From positions 1 through 41,950 of the forward strand of contig JADZAR010000036.1 of NCBI GenBank assembly GCA_020852475.1: DNA of 41,950 nt. Direction: 5' to 3'. Shown here one piece after another: positions 1 through 38,943 of the stretch (its first letter is position 1; each line of letters starts with the position of its first letter). The position numbers and the translations under genes are program-made. Under the pieces are notes generated by a model that saw only the letters and a list, made by a program, of their open reading frames with translations, was not told the DNA's origin and searched no databases. This DNA is from Nitrosomonas sp. (GTDB lineage: Bacteria; Pseudomonadota; Gammaproteobacteria; Burkholderiales; Nitrosomonadaceae).

Positions 1-26
1 AGGTTTCATCATATCAAACTTTGTTA
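1..26 (+). repeat. Direct repeat copy 1 (aggtttcatcatatcaaactttgtta)
   Basis: Identical 26-mer at 38045..38070; similarity continues a few bases with mismatches (CCACAAA shared). It precedes an integrase-like remnant in both places. Confidence 0.9.
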
Positions 27-275
27 TATCCACAAATATTGCCTGGATAAAGCGCTCTATTTTCTTTCACGATAAGCGGCATCCGAACACGATGGGAGAA
101 AGGGAGATTGAATCGTTCCTGAACTCATCTCGCCGTTCAACGCAATGTAGCCGCGTCTACACAAAATCAGGCCTTGTGCGCACTGCTGTTGTTATACAAG
201 GAAGTACTCGGACGTGAATTGACATGACTGAAGTCGATGCAGCGCGCCGCCCGAGGAAATGCCCGCAAAAATACC
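1..275 (+). pseudogene. Degenerate tyrosine recombinase / integron-integrase-like fragment
   Basis: Frame 3 reads [27 protein letters not shown], then after a frameshift [33 protein letters not shown], then after another shift [13 protein letters not shown]. These are typical of the SAM-like N-terminal domain of IntI-type integrases. No intact ORF and no catalytic domain are visible. Confidence 0.8.
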
Positions 276-5660: not shown

Positions 5661-5738
5661 GATGTTTCGGAAATTTGACGACTGTAGATAACTGCCTGTA
5701 CGGTGTAATTATAAGGCAATCAGAGACTGTCAATTAAA

Positions 5739-5878
5739 GGGCGTCTCTAAAAATTCAGCGTTTTAACAAGGCGAGGCGAGAATAAAAAAATATTGACGCC
5801 ACATATGATTGATATTTAGGGATATTCTTTTGCGATCAACAACGCATTGTAACGAAACATGAATTTCTACAGATGCTC
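5739..5878. mobile_element. Possible MITE / IS remnant (non-coding, imperfect TIRs)
   Basis: GGGCGTCTCTAAAAATTCA at the left end and the reverse complement of GAGCATCTGTAGAAATTCA at the right end (15/19 match), 140 bp, AT-rich, no ORF. Confidence 0.5.
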
Positions 5879-5921
5879 TTAGGATAAGAGTGATTTACAA
5901 TCATGTAAATAACTGTTTATT

Positions 5922-5997
5922 TGGTAGGCCGTGCGCGATTCGAACGCGCGACCAACGGATTAAAAGTCCGCTGCTCTACCAGCTGAGCTAACGACCC
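5922..5997 (-). tRNA. tRNA-Lys (anticodon TTT), CCA encoded
   Basis: Reverse complement gggtcgttagctcagctggtagagcagcggacttttaatccgttggtcgcgcgttcgaatcgcgcacggcctacca folds as a cloverleaf with TTT anticodon. Confidence 0.96.
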
Positions 5998-6146
5998 AAA
6001 AAATGAAAACGGGATTATACCTCAATTGCTCTTTAATGCCCAAGTAGTTTGTGTCAATTTTCTGTTATCAACGGATTGGATTGCTACCGGCTTTCAGTTC
6101 ATTCAAAATTTTTTGGATTTGGCGGGTTCCGTATTACTATTCAGCG

Positions 6147-6899
6147 ATGCGAAAGAAAAAAACATCAATCCGGAAAACAGCGCGTGACAACAAGCGATAT
6201 TCTGACACAAGCATTGGTCGCTGGTTTCTAAGACTGGCTTTGTGGGTCATTTACGGCATTTTTTTATACCAGATCTGGTTGCTCTTTCATGTGTTGTACT
6301 GGAAGCATAATAACCCCCAAAGCACCGCATTTATGGAGAATCAACTGGAAATCCTGCGTGCGGATCGCGCGGACGCCACACTGCACCACCAGTGGAAATC
6401 CTATCAACATATTTCAGATGAAATAAAACGGGCGGTTGTTGCTGCCGAGGACAGTCAGTTTCTGCGGCACAGCGGATTTGATTATGATGCCTTATGGCAT
6501 GCTTTTCAAAAGAATCTGTCCCAAGGCAGAGTCACTGCCGGCGGGTCGACCATTAGTCAGCAGTTAGCCAAAAACCTCTTTCTGTCCGATAATAAATCTT
6601 TTTTGCGGAAAGCGCAGGAAGCGATGGTCGCGGTTATGCTGGAGCAAGTTATGTCCAAGCAGCGTATACTGGAAATCTATCTGAATGTTATCGAATGGGG
6701 TAACGGCGTGTTCGGCGCGGAAGCCGCCGCGCAGCATTATTTCGGCCGATCCGCAGCGGATCTAACCCCCCATCAGGCGGCTCTGCTGGCAGCTATGATT
6801 CCCCGTCCACGCTATTACGATAACAACCGGGATTCGCTGCATTTGTTAAAAAAAAGAGACATACTTCTTAAGCGCGCGCATTCAGCAAAGATTCCTTGA
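6147..6899 (+). CDS. mtgA: Monofunctional biosynthetic peptidoglycan transglycosylase
   Basis: GT51 motifs: EDSQFLRHSGFD, GGSTISQQLAKNLFL, KQRILEIYLNVIEWGNGVFGAEAAAQHYF. Start placed at MRKKKTS. Confidence 0.93.
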   Translation: MRKKKTSIRKTARDNKRYSDTSIGRWFLRLALWVIYGIFLYQIWLLFHVLYWKHNNPQSTAFMENQLEILRADRADATLHHQWKSYQHISDEIKRAVVAAEDSQFLRHSGFDYDALWHAFQKNLSQGRVTAGGSTISQQLAKNLFLSDNKSFLRKAQEAMVAVMLEQVMSKQRILEIYLNVIEWGNGVFGAEAAAQHYFGRSAADLTPHQAALLAAMIPRPRYYDNNRDSLHLLKKRDILLKRAHSAKIP

Positions 6900-28578: not shown

Positions 28579-28670
28579 GTTATCCCCTTTATAAAGTGAG
28601 CAGAAACGCGCTTGCCAGCGCTTAATTTGACGCCTGATTTTGATTGAACGAGACTTTTGCACGGCGTCAT

Positions 28671-28715
28671 GAGCGGTACGAGCGGTACGAGCGGTACGAG
28701 CGGTACGAGCGGTAC
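28671..28715. repeat. Tandem repeat (GAGCGGTAC)x5
   Basis: Five perfect 9-bp units, with a partial GAG after; between two divergent lipoprotein genes. Confidence 0.95.
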
Positions 28716-28914
28716 GAGAATAAGGCAAAATTTGCGAAAAAGCGGAGTTTACACGGGGTAAATGAGTATTTTTCGCGAATTTTTAATGCAATTATCGAGC
28801 CGCGTAGTAGTCGTGCAAAGGTCTCAAGCGTAACATTATATATATTCTTATGCCTTGATTATAGTATGATAATTATCATATGGTTAAATAAAATACTGAA
28901 CAGAAAACTGAAAA

Positions 28915-32650: not shown

Positions 32651-33104
32651 ATGAACAGGCTTTCTGAAAACGATATCCAAGTTCTGCAAGAAGCGCTTGA
32701 CGACGAATATCACGCCTGGTCGACTTATGATCAAGTCATCCGTGATTTGGGTGACGTGCAGCCATTCAGCAATATCCGGGAAGCCGAGGCGCGCCATATT
32801 GAAGCATTGCAATCCCTGTTCGTTCAATATGCGCTGCCTGTCCCTGAAAATCCATGGATTGGCAGGGTTGAGCGATACGCTAATCTTCAGGCCGCCTGTG
32901 AAGCGGCTGCCGCAGCCGAAATCGCTAATGTAAGAATGTATGACCGCCTGCTCGGCGCTGCGCGGAATCCCGATGTCGCCACCGTGCTGCGCAATCTCCA
33001 GGAAGCATCAAGAATGCGCCATCTGCCGGCTTTTCAGCGCTTGTATCGAACGCGCCGGCGGGCAGAAGCACTGCGGTCTGCGGCATCGTCGGGGCATGGA
33101 TTAG
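32651..33104 (+). pseudogene. Ferritin-like DUF2202-type protein, frameshifted near its C-terminus
   Basis: EALDDEYHAWSTYDQVIRDLGDVQPFSNIREAEARHIEAL; removing one T at 33041/33042 restores HLPAFQRCIERAGGQKHCGLRHRRGMD* ending at 33104. Confidence 0.7.
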
Positions 33105-33137
33105 TGCCATCGACTCGAGAATGCAGCCGCTCCATCC

Positions 33138-33884
33138 TTACGCATGAAAAAACGCGATGGTGCCGATCCCCGCCAGCAACAGCACAAGCTGACACAAAGC
33201 GGATGAGAACGTCACCCGCCGATGCAATCCCGGAATCAGATCGGCAATCGCAATATAGATGAAACTGGCTGCCGAAAGCGCAAGGATATAAGGTATCGCT
33301 TCGCGCATTTCGTCCAGCCACCAATAAGCCAGCAAAGCACCAGGTAATGTGGCAGCCGCAGAAAGACTGTTCAATAGTATGGCTTGTTTGCGTTCATAGC
33401 CGTTATCCAGCAGTATCGCAAAATCGCCGACTTCCTGTGGGACCTCATGGGCAATCACTGCAAATGCTGTTGTTATTCCCAATGGAATGGAAGTCAGAAA
33501 AGCTGCGGCGATGACTGCGCCATCGACAAAATTATGCAAGGCATCTCCGACCAGAATCAGCGGCCCGGCACTGCCATGCACTTTGCATTCGCGATCATGG
33601 CAATGCCGCCATAACACAAATTTTTCCATTGCGAAGAAAATGACGATGCCTGCCAACAGCGTTATCATCACCGCGTCAGCCGGCACTTGCGCCAACCCGG
33701 CCGGTATCATGCCAAGAAACGCAGCGCCCAATAAGGTTCCCGTCGCATAACTGATGAGGTGAGGCACCAGATTCCTGCGGCTGTTCTCTGGAAAAAACAG
33801 CAACAGACCAGCACCAGCCAAAGCCCCGATACTGCCCAGCAAACTGAATCCAATAATCCAAAGCAGTATCTGATCTTCACTCAT
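33138..33884 (-). CDS. ZIP-family metal transporter
   Basis: LVGDALHNFVDGAVIAAAFL, VIAHEVPQEVGDFAILL. Confidence 0.9.
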   Translation of the reverse strand: MSEDQILLWIIGFSLLGSIGALAGAGLLLFFPENSRRNLVPHLISYATGTLLGAAFLGMIPAGLAQVPADAVMITLLAGIVIFFAMEKFVLWRHCHDRECKVHGSAGPLILVGDALHNFVDGAVIAAAFLTSIPLGITTAFAVIAHEVPQEVGDFAILLDNGYERKQAILLNSLSAAATLPGALLAYWWLDEMREAIPYILALSAASFIYIAIADLIPGLHRRVTFSSALCQLVLLLAGIGTIAFFHA

Positions 33885-33894
33885 ATTTCAGCTG

Positions 33895-35295
33895 TTATTT
33901 TGCAATAGTAATACCCGGCGGACTAAAAAGCGGCGCATCGGTCACCGTCATGCGGAACAGAATGTTCAATAATTGGAATGCATTCAGATTCCAGTGCGCC
34001 AGAGAACCTTCGGCATTGACGGCATAATACTTGCCGTGTGAACGAACGGATAGACCGACGTTCTTCAGTGGCGTTTCCGATACTACAAGATCCAGCGTCA
34101 TGACGGGATTCTCATCACGCTTGATAGGCGGCGTGCGCGGATCTTTCTCGACATGATATTCCGCCTCCTCTCCCAGGGAATGGCCAAGAAAATTCAGAAT
34201 CGAATGAAAGCTTCTGAGCCGGAAAGATCCTCGAATAGGCCATTCGCCGCCGACGGAATCAGCGCGAATGTCAAAAGCCACGTCATGTTCAATCCATGAA
34301 CTGGTCAGATCAAACAACTCCGCCCTCTCCTCGCAGCACACAATATCCGGATCGTAATTGGTGATCAGCACCGGCCCCAGTATCTGCTTGCTCAACGTGT
34401 AGGTATTGTCTTCCGGATTGTAATGAACGGTAAATTCCTTCTCCAGCGCCTGAAATCCTTCTGCTGTAACTGATCCGGCAGGGATCGTCCAGCTGCGCTC
34501 AAACGTCAGCGGCTCGGCGTAAAGTTTCCGCTGATCCTGGATAGCTGAAAGATGCAGCACGACCCGGCGGAACATTTCATATTCGGTCTGGCTGGACGGA
34601 TTGTTGCGATAGGCAATTTGCCTGCGGTGGCGCTCGCTGCGCTGACGTACACGGCGTTCCTGTTCCTCAGTCAATTGAATCGCGTGTTCGGACAAATCAT
34701 GCTGCTCCCGTACGTGCTTTGGATCAACGTGACCTTCTTGCCGGCTACCGTGGTGGTGTTTGCCGCGCCTGAAGCGGAAATGATGTTCGGGATCATTCCG
34801 GGCTTCATCGGTTCTGTTTTGTGCGTGGCCATGCTGCAAATGCACTTCCTGCGCCAGCATACGCAGCAACAGATCGACATCGAAATGCTGACGCAACAGC
34901 AGTGTCAGCTTGCTTTGATGAAATGGCGTAAGCAGCCGCTTGGTGAATTCCTCACCCTCAATCGGCACAATGGTGAAAGTCGGATTATCGGCGATGCTTC
35001 CGCCAAATAAAGGCATCAGCATACCGCCCGACTCCCCGGTGAGGGCTGGCGTGCCGCCTGCATTGACACGAAAATCAAAAGTAGCCGCGATATTGGGAAC
35101 CCGCGTAAAATGAATCGACTGGTGATGCTGGGCGCGCGCAATATTGATCAGCAACTGTTCCGATTCGGCCTTGCTGACCGCTTCGTCATAAGCGATCACC
35201 GCGCGATTTAGCGTGATTGGTGATAAACAACCGGCAAGCGTGAAAATACAAGCGACGCAAAACAGAATGCGCAGCATGGCATGACTTCCTGACAT
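33895..35295 (-). CDS. Lipoprotein of unknown function with His/Arg-rich internal segment
   Basis: Lipobox FTLAGCLSP; conserved-looking N- and C-terminal parts flank HGHAQNRTDEARNDPEHHFRFRRGKHHHGSRQEGHVDPKHVREQHDLSEHA. Confidence 0.7.
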   Translation of the reverse strand: MSGSHAMLRILFCVACIFTLAGCLSPITLNRAVIAYDEAVSKAESEQLLINIARAQHHQSIHFTRVPNIAATFDFRVNAGGTPALTGESGGMLMPLFGGSIADNPTFTIVPIEGEEFTKRLLTPFHQSKLTLLLRQHFDVDLLLRMLAQEVHLQHGHAQNRTDEARNDPEHHFRFRRGKHHHGSRQEGHVDPKHVREQHDLSEHAIQLTEEQERRVRQRSERHRRQIAYRNNPSSQTEYEMFRRVVLHLSAIQDQRKLYAEPLTFERSWTIPAGSVTAEGFQALEKEFTVHYNPEDNTYTLSKQILGPVLITNYDPDIVCCEERAELFDLTSSWIEHDVAFDIRADSVGGEWPIRGSFRLRSFHSILNFLGHSLGEEAEYHVEKDPRTPPIKRDENPVMTLDLVVSETPLKNVGLSVRSHGKYYAVNAEGSLAHWNLNAFQLLNILFRMTVTDAPLFSPPGITIAK

Positions 35296-35318
35296 GAAGA
35301 CTGAACCTTATATACGTT

Positions 35319-35548
35319 ATTAAACCGCCCGATCAATAATCACAATAAGCCATCCTCGACTTCGACACCTAAAGCGCGGTACTGATGACCAACGCGAACG
35401 GAGTAATACTTTCCAACCATTTTGAAGTGCAATGATGGAGCCTAGGGTCTACTTTGAGCAATTCATCGTTCTTGCACGCCAAGCACTGAACCTGATCCGG
35501 CAGTTTGTCAAAGCACTCCCAGAAAGACGGCGCGGCGTCATGTTTCAA
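35319..35548 (-). pseudogene. Degenerate type II toxin (RelE/BrnT-like size), 3' truncated
   Basis: TTG start overlapping the antitoxin stop: (M)KHDAAPSFWECFDKLPDQVQCLACKNDELLKVDPR, frameshift, LHFKMVGKYYSVRVGHQYRALGVEVEDGLL, then TGA at 35340..35342 where W is expected. Confidence 0.65.
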
Positions 35549-35745
35549 ATCTCGGGACTGTCACCGCGCTTATGCGACGCAATTGCTTTCTTCGCCAATT
35601 CGTCAAGTTTGCCACTTGCGGCATCGTCTTCGATTTGCCAATTCCAAGAATCTGAATCGAATTCAATAAACCACTCGCGCAGCAATTTAAGTTCATCCAC
35701 CGGGAGCGCTTCGATTTCTTTTTCCAGCATTTCAACTTTGCCCAT
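35545..35745 (-). CDS. Antitoxin-like small protein (addiction module component)
   Basis: MGKVEMLEKEIEALPVDELKLLREWFIEFDSDSWNWQIEDDAASGKLDELAKKAIASHKRGDSPEI; overlaps the toxin remnant. Start may instead be 35772. Confidence 0.75.
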   Translation of the reverse strand: MGKVEMLEKEIEALPVDELKLLREWFIEFDSDSWNWQIEDDAASGKLDELAKKAIASHKRGDSPEI

Positions 35746-35836
35746 GACACATACTTCCGGGGTAACTTGCACCCTATTTTACTATCATTCGGATGCAATA
35801 TATCTTGCTTTTTTTCAGCACGTTGCGCCCCACTTG

Positions 35837-35908
35837 GGCTAACGAACGCGCTAACCCGCCGGAGTGAAGCGTAGCGAAACTCTGCTCGGGTTGAGTGTTT
35901 TGTTCGGC
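35837..35908 (-). other. attC-like integron recombination site
   Basis: - strand GCCGAAC-AAAACA-CTCAACCCG-...-CGGGTTAG-CGCGTTC-GTTAGCC. R''/R' and L''/L' pair, with one unpaired base in L'' (CTCAACCCG vs CGGGTTAG). Lies 3 bp after the hicB stop. Confidence 0.7.
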
Positions 35909-35911
35909 ACG

Positions 35912-36124
35912 CTATGCATAGACAAGACGGCGACCTTTCGGCTCTGGAACTGGGTCTCCAAATTCTCGCGCCGTATCAAGCCAAAGCTGCATGGCCTCTT
36001 GAGCATTCGCCAACGCCTCATTTGGAGATGCACCATGTGCCATACAACCAGGCAGTTCCGGTACATCGGCGATGAACGATTGATCTTCGTCGCTCCAATA
36101 AATAATAGTTTCGTACTTATGCAT
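35912..36124 (-). CDS. hicB: HicB-family antitoxin
   Basis: YWSDEDQSFIADVPELPGCMAHGASPNEALANAQEAMQLWLDTA. Confidence 0.92.
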   Translation of the reverse strand: MHKYETIIYWSDEDQSFIADVPELPGCMAHGASPNEALANAQEAMQLWLDTAREFGDPVPEPKGRRLVYA

Positions 36125-36126
36125 AG

Positions 36127-36378
36127 CTATTCACCTGCTAAATGATATTTCAGTAGTATTTCGCGAATCTGACTTATTTGATATGGCTTGGCCTTGTTTC
36201 CCGCCTTCTGCATGTTTATCTTTTCCTCAATTCCCACCTTTCGATAAAGGTGATGACTACCGCGAATTCGTTCATCGAAGCCAAGATGGATCAGCAAGCC
36301 TCGAATATCATCAAATGCGATATTCGCATCCGATGTGCCGCGAAGGATTTTTTCAATTAGTTTATCGTGCTTTCCCAT
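36127..36378 (-). CDS. hicA: HicA-family toxin
   Basis: IAFDDIRGLLIHLGFDERIRGSHHLYRKVGIEEKINMQKAGNKAKPYQISQIREILLKYHL; upstream of hicB. Confidence 0.92.
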   Translation of the reverse strand: MGKHDKLIEKILRGTSDANIAFDDIRGLLIHLGFDERIRGSHHLYRKVGIEEKINMQKAGNKAKPYQISQIREILLKYHLAGE

Positions 36379-36402
36379 GCCACATCCTTCTGATCTCTAG
36401 GC

Positions 36403-36475
36403 GTCGAACGTTCAAGGTGAGCGGCGCGGAGCCGCGCTTTTTGGCGGAGCGTCCTGCTCGACCGCAGTGTTAGGC
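36403..36475 (-). other. attC-like integron recombination site
   Basis: - strand GCCTAAC (contains the TAA stop of the OLD-like gene)-ACTGC-GGTCGAGC...GCTCACC-TTGAAC-GTTCGAC; L''/L' pair with one extrahelical base; GCGCGG-CT-CCGCGC terminal hairpin. Confidence 0.72.
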
Positions 36476-37923
36476 ATTTACTTCCCTTTCAATGTCGGCA
36501 ATAAGATTATCAAATTCACTTTGTATTTCTGAAATATATCGTTCTATAGCCACTGTTCGTATTACGCTCTCTTCAGTTTCTGCCTCATCAGCAAGACACT
36601 TGGCAAACTTATGATGATCTGTAATTTCCTTTTTCTGAAGTTCCCAATCGACATCTAAACCATACTTGGTCTTGAGTAGGGATTTCACTTCTGGGTGTGT
36701 AAAAACCTCTTTTTCTGGGGGCTTAGTACCAGGAAAGGAATACATTTTATCTTGTGGTGCTGCTCCAATATCCGCATCTCTGACTGCAATTGCTTTCTTT
36801 CCTGTTTTGTTGAGGACACGGACGGCCTCACGGACAGCATCTGTGTCTCCGATATCGTGAATCGCAACCGTCTTTAGTAAATCTAGCTTCTTGATTCGTA
36901 TTACTTCTGTCAGCAACACCTTGGCAAAAATATCTTCAACACAAATATCGAGCTGACGAACATGACCTGATGACAATATGGAGCGCACTTGATTTGAAGA
37001 TATTTTATTCCTGATATCGACTCCGGTTTCATCTCGAAGAATTAGTTTTCTAGCTTCAGGTGGGAGTGCATTAATTATTACGCTCGAATGCGTTGAAAGA
37101 ATTATCTGATGGTGTCGCCTATAGCACACATCCAATAAATATTTGGCGAATTCGTGTTGGGCGCTTTCGTGTAGTGATGTTTCCGGCTCCTCAAGAATGA
37201 ACAGACTTTGTTCCGGCGAGGTTTCTAACTTGTCGACAGTATAGAGGATTCTGCCTTCACCAAACCCCATGTTATTTTCTGAGTATGAATATCCAAGCCT
37301 TGAGGCTATTCCAACTTCTGATTCCTTTCCTTTGTGCGAGATGCCTTGGAACATTACATCGTCATATTTGTGGCCGATGATTCGAGCCATTTTTTTGATC
37401 ACTTCAGCATCAATTTCCCGTTTTTCAGTAAATTGGAGAGTGGCACCGCCATAGACGCTTAAGTCACGACGTTCAACTTTCGGTATGTAAACTGTGAAAC
37501 CAACATAGTAGCAATGCCGTTCTGGCTGCCTTTTGTATCCAGACCAAGCAGAGTTTGCTCGTGAAATAGTCAATTCTTGAGGCTTCTTATGATCATCAGT
37601 CTCATAGAAATAAATGACCTTTGCTTCGTCTGATATTGGCTTTGGATCAGCCAGTGAAATAGGAAAAAATCCTTTATGTACTGCCTCTTATAGTCTACTG
37701 ACGTGGATGGTTTCTTATAAGCACAAATTGCCAGTTGGCCGATTGTACTTTTGCCCGCACCATTCAACCCGGAAACTACCGTTATCGGAAAGTCGAGTTC
37801 GAAATCGATATTGTAGATACCTCTAAATCCGTCAATGTGAATTTTGCGTAAGCAAGGTCCAAAGTTCGAATAGCGATTTTTCTCGGAATACTTTGCTTGA
37901 AGTTTTTTGGCTATATCTGCCAC
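36470..37923 (-). pseudogene. OLD-like AAA ATPase / TOPRIM-type nuclease, split by a frameshift
   Basis: GTG start; SGLNGAGKSTIGQL Walker A, LFILEEPETSLHESAQHEF, QIILSTHSSVIIN, VEDIFAKVLL, DADIG. Adding one T in the T6 run (37664..37669) fuses YIKDFF to PISLADPKPISDEAKVIYFYETDDHKKPQELTISRANSAW. Confidence 0.8.
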
Positions 37924-37938
37924 TGTGTCTCCTTCTTT

Positions 37939-37994
37939 GCCTAACTAGAATTAGGCGTCCGAAATGACGCAATAGCTTACGTCACAAGCCTAAC
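37939..37994 (-). other. Putative attI / core-site region: two GTTAGGC core motifs
   Basis: - strand GTTAGGC at 37994..37988 and 37945..37939, 49 bp apart, between the integrase remnant and the first cassette gene (RBS AAGGAGA, GTG start). Confidence 0.5.
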
Positions 37995-38044
37995 ACGGAA
38001 AATTGCATGCTATCTCCTTCAATTTTCTAATAATACGCCAACTC

Positions 38045-38070
38045 AGGTTTCATCATATCAAACTTTGTTA
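38045..38070 (+). repeat. Direct repeat copy 2 (aggtttcatcatatcaaactttgtta)
   Basis: Identical to window positions 1..26; 18 bp upstream of the integrase remnant ATG. Confidence 0.9.
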
Positions 38071-38088
38071 GACCCACAAACAAATCCG

Positions 38089-38150
38089 ATGAATAGAGCC
38101 GTAGAAAACAAGCCTCGCTTTCTGGATCAGATGCGAAACAAACTCAGCCC
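38089..38150 (+). pseudogene. Integron-integrase N-terminal remnant
   Basis: MNRAVENKPRFLDQMRNKL resembles the N-terminus of IntI-type integrases (..KPxxLLDQVRxxI..), then diverges. Confidence 0.55.
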
Positions 38151-38169
38151 GGTCGGCATATCCTACCGA
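38149..38169 (+). repeat. Short dispersed repeat copy A
   Basis: ccggtcggcatatcctaccga; 18/21 match to 39054..39074. Confidence 0.5.
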
Positions 38170-38324
38170 AACACACGCAATGCCGGTGAAAGAAATTCTG
38201 ATAAGCAAAAAAAGGGGGGGAATTTCCCCATCGGGTCAACAAGAAGATCGATCCCTTGAATCTGCCCCTTGAGCCTGTCGATTGACACACACGTTGCGTC
38301 AACATACCCTATCAAGCTGGACAA

Positions 38325-38348
38325 TGATCATACTTACTCGTATGATCA
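38325..38348. promoter_or_regulatory. Operator-like palindrome upstream of the mazEF-like operon
   Basis: TGATCATAC-TTACTC-GTATGATCA, 9-bp perfect arms, about 30 bp before the antitoxin ATG; related half-site TGATCAGTATGA follows. Confidence 0.7.
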
Positions 38349-38378
38349 CAATGTTCCCTGATCAGTATGAGATAAAAT

Positions 38379-38609
38379 ATGACACATCGAATCACCATCA
38401 CGCTGGATGATGATATTTTTGCATTTCTTAATCAAGTTGCCGGTGATAACCGTAGCGCTTACATCAATCAGCTTTTGCAGCAGGAACGCAATAATTTTCT
38501 CAAACAAACACTCATCAAAGCAAACCGGGAAGAAGCTGAAGATATGGACTATCAGGAAGAATTGCAGGCATGGGACAGCACTCTGTCCGATGGTCTGACC
38601 AATGACTAA
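38379..38609 (+). CDS. MazE-like / RHH-type antitoxin
   Basis: MTHRITITLDDDIFAFLNQVAGDNRSAYINQLLQQERN; overlaps the toxin start. Confidence 0.82.
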   Translation: MTHRITITLDDDIFAFLNQVAGDNRSAYINQLLQQERNNFLKQTLIKANREEAEDMDYQEELQAWDSTLSDGLTND

Positions 38610-38943
38610 ATTCAAACAACTGGATATTCACTGGATCGACCTTGAACCGGCAAAGGGTGCGGAAACCAGGAAACTGAAACCATGCGTGATTGTTCAAAGC
38701 GATCTTGTGAATATTCAATCCCGCACGTTGATTGTTGCTCCTCTGCTGCCCAATCATAAACCCTGGCCTTTCGCAGTCAATCTGGAACCAACCCAGGAAA
38801 ACGGTTTGGACAAAAACCGTCATATCAATCTCAAACAATTACGCGCTGTCGATGTTTCGAGGATTGGCAAAAAACAAGGAGAACTGGAAAGTCAATATAG
38901 CGATGCTATTAAAGCTGCCTTAACTATCGTGTTTGATTTGTAG
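38602..38943 (+). CDS. MazF/PemK-family endoribonuclease toxin
   Basis: GAETRKLKPCVIVQSDLVNIQSRTLIVAPLLPN, LDKNRHINLKQLRAVDVSRI. Confidence 0.88.
   Translation: MTKFKQLDIHWIDLEPAKGAETRKLKPCVIVQSDLVNIQSRTLIVAPLLPNHKPWPFAVNLEPTQENGLDKNRHINLKQLRAVDVSRIGKKQGELESQYSDAIKAALTIVFDL

Follow-up and report, generated by a model that had tools for sequence, protein, structure and literature searches.

An integron is usually pictured as one attI site leading one array of gene cassettes. Pseudogenes make up about a third of all intI genes, and more than one intI is found in about a fifth of the bacteria that contain integrons (PMC2426708). In the chromosomal integrons of Xanthomonas, intI has been inactivated by frameshift or deletion in many lineages, while the cassettes remain (PMC12444791). 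Clusters of attC sites without an integrase are filed by IntegronFinder as CALINs, and this program does not detect attI sites other than those of class 1 (PMC9024848). Pieces of attI have also been described within cassettes, namely the Delta-attI-type cassettes of class 1 and 2 integrons (PMC12901181).

The DNA analyzed here, referred to as the window, is a 41,950-nt stretch of a Nitrosomonas sp. genome (assembly GCA_020852475.1; contig JADZAR010000036.1, positions 1 to 41,950). We conclude, with a probability of roughly 0.9, that its region 35325-38181 is the remnant of an integron, and that the same attI is scattered over Nitrosomonas chromosomes, where nearly every copy precedes an accessory gene, mostly without an integrase.

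Among the systems closest to this locus is the integron of N. halophila Nm1 (accession no. NZ_FNOY01000086.1), which belongs to the same attI family and with which both the intI remnant of the window and the stretch upstream of it can be aligned. Unlike the window, the N. halophila integron contains a full-length intI, several clear attCs and a first gene that resembles merR by eye. As in Xanthomonas, an ancestral platform has lost its integrase and the cassettes have been left behind; however, intI of Xanthomonas occupies one conserved place, next to ilvD, whereas the Nitrosomonas attI is found in many places, mostly with one or few genes each (PMC12444791). A superintegron (many cassettes in one long array, with attCs that are almost identical) was not found in the window, where the two attC sites are unlike each other. 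The nearest filed class is the CALIN (PMC9024848): two attCs (36403-36475 and 35837-35908) lie close together without an intact intI, although the second of them might miss a covariance-model threshold. Since CALINs are defined by attC only and attI sites outside class 1 go undetected, a lone attI followed by gene units would be missed. The location of attI away from the integrase within a moving unit is a feature shared with Delta-attI-type cassettes (cf. the tandem units of L145 described below), but the latter mostly contain short attI pieces downstream of resistance genes in mobile arrays, whereas the Nitrosomonas sites are chromosomal and lie on the promoter side (PMC12901181). In a search of the open-access literature, no description of attI sites scattered over Nitrosomonas genomes was found.

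Array and integrase remnants in the window

The features identified are listed in Table 1. As had been proposed in the initial annotation, three gene units are located on the - strand with two sites of 72-73 bp between them. Read from 38081 to 35325, the array consists of attI, an AAA/OLD-type ATPase gene, attC1, hicAB, attC2, an antitoxin-like gene and a toxin gene that is broken and cut, i.e. two complete cassettes and one truncated.

Table 1. Features of the integron remnants identified in the window.
Feature	Position	Strand	Basis and remarks
attI element, 147 bp	37939..38081	-	homology to attI of the intact N. halophila integron
Candidate cassette promoter Pc	38052..38080	-	-35 TTTGTG (38080-38075), 17 bp, -10 TATGAT (38057-38052); read from sequence
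Leader ORF remnant, frameshifted	37982..38008	-	20 codons, MQLxVLDFIFDVIYCVISDV, in other attI copies
Cassette 1, AAA/OLD-type ATPase gene	36409..37944	-	ORFs, Pfam, 7/7 complementary ends
attC1	36403..36475	-	R'' GCCTAAC, R' GTTCGAC, extrahelical C in L''; covariance model R3
Cassette 2, hicAB	35843..36408	-	Pfam; T. brandeum pTBH13 counterpart with the same ends
hicA	36127-36378	-	Pfam HicA, below cut-off
hicB	35912-36124	-	Pfam HicB_lk_antitox, above cut-off
attC2	35837..35908	-	R'' GCCGAAC, R' GTTAGCC, extrahelical C in L''; cassette comparison
Cassette 3, truncated, without attC	35325..35842	-	ORFs, cut end
Antitoxin-like ORF of cassette 3	35545-35772	-	likeness to the L145 1475-1687 ORF, by eye
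Toxin remnant of cassette 3, frameshifted and cut	about 35335-35548	-	reading frames, cut end
intI remnant, N-terminal part only	38090..38181	+	tblastn with N. halophila IntI, aligned DNA
Second decayed platform	1..262	+	last 35 nt of attI and IntI codons about 38-109, stop and frameshift

The attI had not been recognized in the initial annotation and is added here. Nitrosomonas genomes were queried with positions 37925 to 38380 of the window, and this revealed repeats that align over 147 bp. One copy directly precedes the intact integron integrase of N. halophila Nm1, with the attCs on its other side; since the element lies between the intact intI and the attCs, it represents the attI region of that integron. 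In the window the element adjoins the intI remnant and heads the array; on the - strand its predicted crossover point (G|TT) falls between 37945 and 37944. The candidate Pc region is kept among the attI copies. A near-perfect palindrome, TGACG-AATATATT-CGTCA (37965-37984), is present in most copies and may be a protein-binding site.

In class 1 integrons, attI1 contains orf11, a short leader ORF with a ribosome site that ends near the attI crossover. The leader ORF of the Nitrosomonas element is similarly short, has a ribosome site and ends near the crossover; in 50 of 69 attI copies its frame is open over the standard length. It differs from orf11 in having 20 codons, and codon-level selection was not detected (pN/pS 0.84, compared to 0.87 and 0.99 in the other frames). 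A coding gene was rejected at this position, as its codon positions bear no mark of protein-level selection, and the ORF is retained only as a possible orf11-like leader.

The gene of cassette 1 is split by one frameshift near 37680 into two ORFs (37570-37923 and 36470-37573). The original label "OLD-like nuclease" applies to its ATPase part only (Pfam AAA_23, AAA_15 and AAA_21), and its stop codon (TAA, 36472-36470) does lie within GCCTAAC, as annotated. The ends of this cassette (start TTAGGC, end GCCTAAC) are complementary at 7/7 positions, which would pair with each other in a free circular cassette. The corresponding value for the hicAB cassette (TTCGAC, GCCGAAC) is 6/7, and 7/7 for its counterpart on plasmid pTBH13 of Thiolapillus brandeum, with which it shares 84% identity. 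The similarity between these two cassettes spans exactly the region from G|TT of attC1 to G|TT of attC2, i.e. between the predicted crossover points. Most genes near the hicAB unit of pTBH13 are on the same strand and attC-like stretches are located between them. An antitoxin-like ORF resembling that of cassette 3 (by eye) was observed immediately behind an attI at locus L145 (1475-1687). Cassette 3 itself is cut at about 35325-35335, at the start of a block common to another species.

Both sites were folded as single-stranded DNA, along the lines advised in the initial annotation, but neither site folded better than shuffled sequences (z -0.75 to +0.5). For this reason folding is not counted as support, and a covariance model (R3) was built instead from 35 Nitrosomonas attCs in consistent orientation, none of them from the window; these came from arrays that adjoin an intact integrase as well as from further attI loci. 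In a search of the whole genome attC1 was one of only two sites reported (26 bits, E 0.0044; 16.9 bits in a search of the window only). The match of attC2 was weak (7.8 bits, E 4.5), compared to 19.4 bits for its T. brandeum counterpart. By a combined score of motif and pairing, the two sites came first and third among those of the window, although either score alone was matched by some shuffles. For the putative attC2, the comparison with the T. brandeum cassette is a stronger argument than the covariance model. The cassettes are bounded by attC sites, attC1 according to the model and both ends of the hicAB cassette according to the T. brandeum comparison.

The divergent MNRAVENKPRFLDQMRNKL start noted on the + strand (ATG at 38090) directly adjoins the 147-bp attI element. 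The IntI similarity predicted near 38089-38150 was present: tblastn of N. halophila IntI against the 42-kb window gave a match at 38059-38181 (44% identity over 41 aligned residues, E 3.5e-4). A second decayed platform was identified at the very start of the window (1-262), where two tblastn matches to N. halophila IntI have 93% and 77% identity and the DNA is 82% identical to N. halophila intI; the attI end located there is 94% identical to 38045-38080. Since the contig starts inside this attI-intI repeat, the cassettes of the second platform are not in view. The genome contained no match above the cut-off of the integron integrase model TIGR02249 (503 bits for the N. halophila integrase), and the window holds only the remnants. 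The intI remnant, the attI homology, the attC1 match and the cassette ends together support the view of the initial annotation that the locus is what is left of a chromosomal integron without integrase function.

Beside the intI remnant (38379-38943) there are genes for an antitoxin-like protein and a PemK/MazF-type toxin; this region has 86% DNA identity to a sequence in genome G025.

Distribution of the attI element in Nitrosomonas

The attI copies in 85 Nitrosomonas genomes, several of them MAGs or drafts, were counted with a sequence model (R1); 37 candidates per genome were scored, and the counts are therefore lower bounds. The element was found in 69 of the 85 genomes, with at least 345 copies altogether and at least 14 in the genome with the highest count; nine single-contig genomes contain from at least 2 to at least 11 copies each. 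When 399 genomes were sampled from the order, the element was detected in 10 of the 11 belonging to Nitrosomonas and in 0 of the other 388. The search of plasmids gave no match. The source genome of the window contains at least eight attI places, including positions 1-35 of the window and a second copy on contig C90. With this many sites in the genome and the genus, the locus is not a lone sedentary integron. Its attI belongs to a large set of scattered docking sites, and the integrase proper to these sites has almost died out.

At 89% of the 66 copies with enough sequence for this count, an ORF of 100 aa or more begins no further than 100 nt from attI (median 16 nt) and reads away from it, compared to 6% on the integrase side and 29% at random places. 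In an alignment of 62 attI junctions the information per position was mostly above 1 bit up to TTA, 0.8 bit at the next G and about 0.4 bit or less past it. Conservation that stops inside GTTRRRY is expected if the end of this motif and everything beyond it arrive with the cassette. Ten first genes encode HEPN, GIY-YIG, glyoxalase, TIR, deaminase, Ham1, DUF4160, HEPN/RES, GFA and PLD proteins. The attC models placed an attC in the proper orientation behind the first or second gene at about fifteen attI loci, some of which (e.g. L126, L120 and L130 3492) had been held out from model training. The remaining loci gave none, and no attC was detected at more than half of the lone attI copies examined, at which the genes may have been captured as cassettes. 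To judge by eye, the intact attI of N. halophila (L087, about 5700-6600) is followed first by genes like merR and that of a mercury transport protein.

All flanks of the attI copies were then compared, together with the first 600 nt and the first proteins behind attI. This analysis revealed about ten places with a common integrase-side flank and attI but an unrelated gene behind it, with the exception of one pair in group G. Nine of these places represent one locus in different species, one of them resting on a 212-bp match only. The tenth is a duplicate (97%) within genome G041, in which the similarity stops at the attI crossover; as G041 is a MAG, this case is taken cautiously. One shared locus is flanked by an aminotransferase-like gene and by a guanidine-I riboswitch (Rfam RF00442): five species contain attI there with five different genes behind it, and in G083 the flanks are about 56 bp apart without an attI.

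Locus L145 (1352-6338) contains four tandem attI copies with genes between them. A unit composed of an attC-like site, an intI start and attI is repeated there with 89% identity. The attI crossover marks its end, as would be the case for a platform that had moved in the manner of a cassette.

The cognate IntI is full-length only in N. halophila (1/85 genomes), and the other full-length integron integrases of Nitrosomonas share at most 67% identity with it. An integron integrase above the cut-off was present in 9 of the 16 genomes without this attI, compared to 12 of the 69 with it; phylogeny may be the cause of this difference. Two copies in genome G049 part ways just past the intI stop, near GTTGCGC, and the vicinity of this motif as a defined far end of the attI-intI unit is suggestive only.

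Possible origins of the scattered attI copies

The observed homology of the attI and intI remnants, the cassette ends, the copy numbers, the ORF orientation and the unrelated genes behind a fixed attI would be explained by the following course of events. In the window, an integrase would have joined circular cassettes at attI (37945|37944), giving the order attI, ATPase gene, attC1, hicAB, attC2 and antitoxin/toxin genes. Of intI, no more than the first few dozen codons would then have survived decay, frameshifts would have arisen in the ATPase gene and in the toxin gene at the end, and the array would have been cut at about 35325. Elsewhere, each gene behind an attI would likewise have arrived as a cassette by attI x attC recombination, with the integrase acting in cis while present or in trans from another copy. 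The candidate promoter in the attI stretch (TTTGTG, 17 bp, TATGAT) would drive the captured genes. The integrase and attC would have been lost while attI and the gene stayed, and the attI stretch probably persists because it drives the captured gene.

The spread of the platform may have been passive: an ancestral attI-intI platform would have been duplicated or transferred, each copy using and then losing its own integrase, with neither action in trans nor integrase-made spread of attI. We give this account even odds. The unit common to the copies is attI plus intI, with nothing shared past the intI end; a recognizable intI is kept at 15 of 69 attI copies, always from near the N-terminus; and both the 97% duplicate in G041 and the tandem unit in L145 speak for it. 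However, neither flanking repeats nor a transposase common to the attI copies were found, and intI was undetectable at 54 of the 69 copies, among them those at shared loci where each species compared has another gene. The nearest neighbor of an attI copy was in the same genome for 9 of 69 copies, compared to 2 expected; this clustering is weak because the least decayed copy attracts many others.

Alternatively, many attI sites may have served as docking sites filled in trans by one integrase, a possibility we hold only tentatively. The orthologous slots occupied by unrelated genes without a local integrase point in this direction, as does the N. halophila genome, in which one intact and at least two decayed copies coexist. 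However, with the cognate integrase intact in that genome only, any present action in trans would be limited to N. halophila at most, and action in cis before the decay of intI gives the same pattern. We would lean against, but still consider, the proposal of a distributed integron that was once present in Nitrosomonas and may persist in N. halophila, i.e. many attI sites at conserved chromosomal positions, each with one or a few exchangeable cassettes behind its own promoter, served by a single trans-acting integrase that has since been lost in nearly all species.

It is very improbable that the 147-bp element is a MITE-like interspersed promoter repeat that happens to lie beside intI at some places. 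It is multicopy, short, often without intI, and contains the palindrome described above; however, it adjoins the intact N. halophila intI with the attCs beyond, one of its ends is GTTRRRY followed by a gene, and at its other end the intI remnants are in register. The terminal inverted repeats and the pair of uniform ends typical of MITEs were not found, and the end that runs into intI is cut at varied places. The notion that no integron is involved, and that attC-like motifs occur by chance among chromosomal genes, can practically be dismissed: the folding, no better than that of shuffles, and the single motif scores reachable by chance agree with it, but the cassette ends common to a plasmid array of T. 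brandeum, the attI and intI homology and the genome-wide covariance-model match of attC1 do not.

The integron remnants of Nitrosomonas, with attI at many places in one genus and mostly before one or few genes, contrast with the picture of a single attI per array and document, in nature, gene capture that involves no long array. They yield candidates for captured genes across the genus (TIR, HEPN/RES, PLD, deaminases and others) and represent a class of integron remains invisible to searches by attC and integrase alone. They also offer a test of whether attI sites far away on the same chromosome can be used by an integron integrase.

Surroundings of the array

The window region 33102-35324 is 96.7% identical to a contig of Nitrosomonas genome G086, whereas the core gene mnmE of the two genomes is only about 69% alike. 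This block ends at 35324, where the truncated cassette 3 begins, which suggests a recent transfer and the cut of the array. An empty site corresponding to the window's own locus was not found; the left flank is the near-identical G086 block and mnmE, with its about 69% likeness, lies on the other side.

A tandem 9-bp repeat, GCGGTACGA, is located at positions 28664-28717 of the window. Loci L038 (about 1250-1100) and L185 (after 2223) contain a common short repeat (taactattcagcgcactttgtcattccg...) that looks like a MITE; it was observed both beside integron remains and at the G086 junction.
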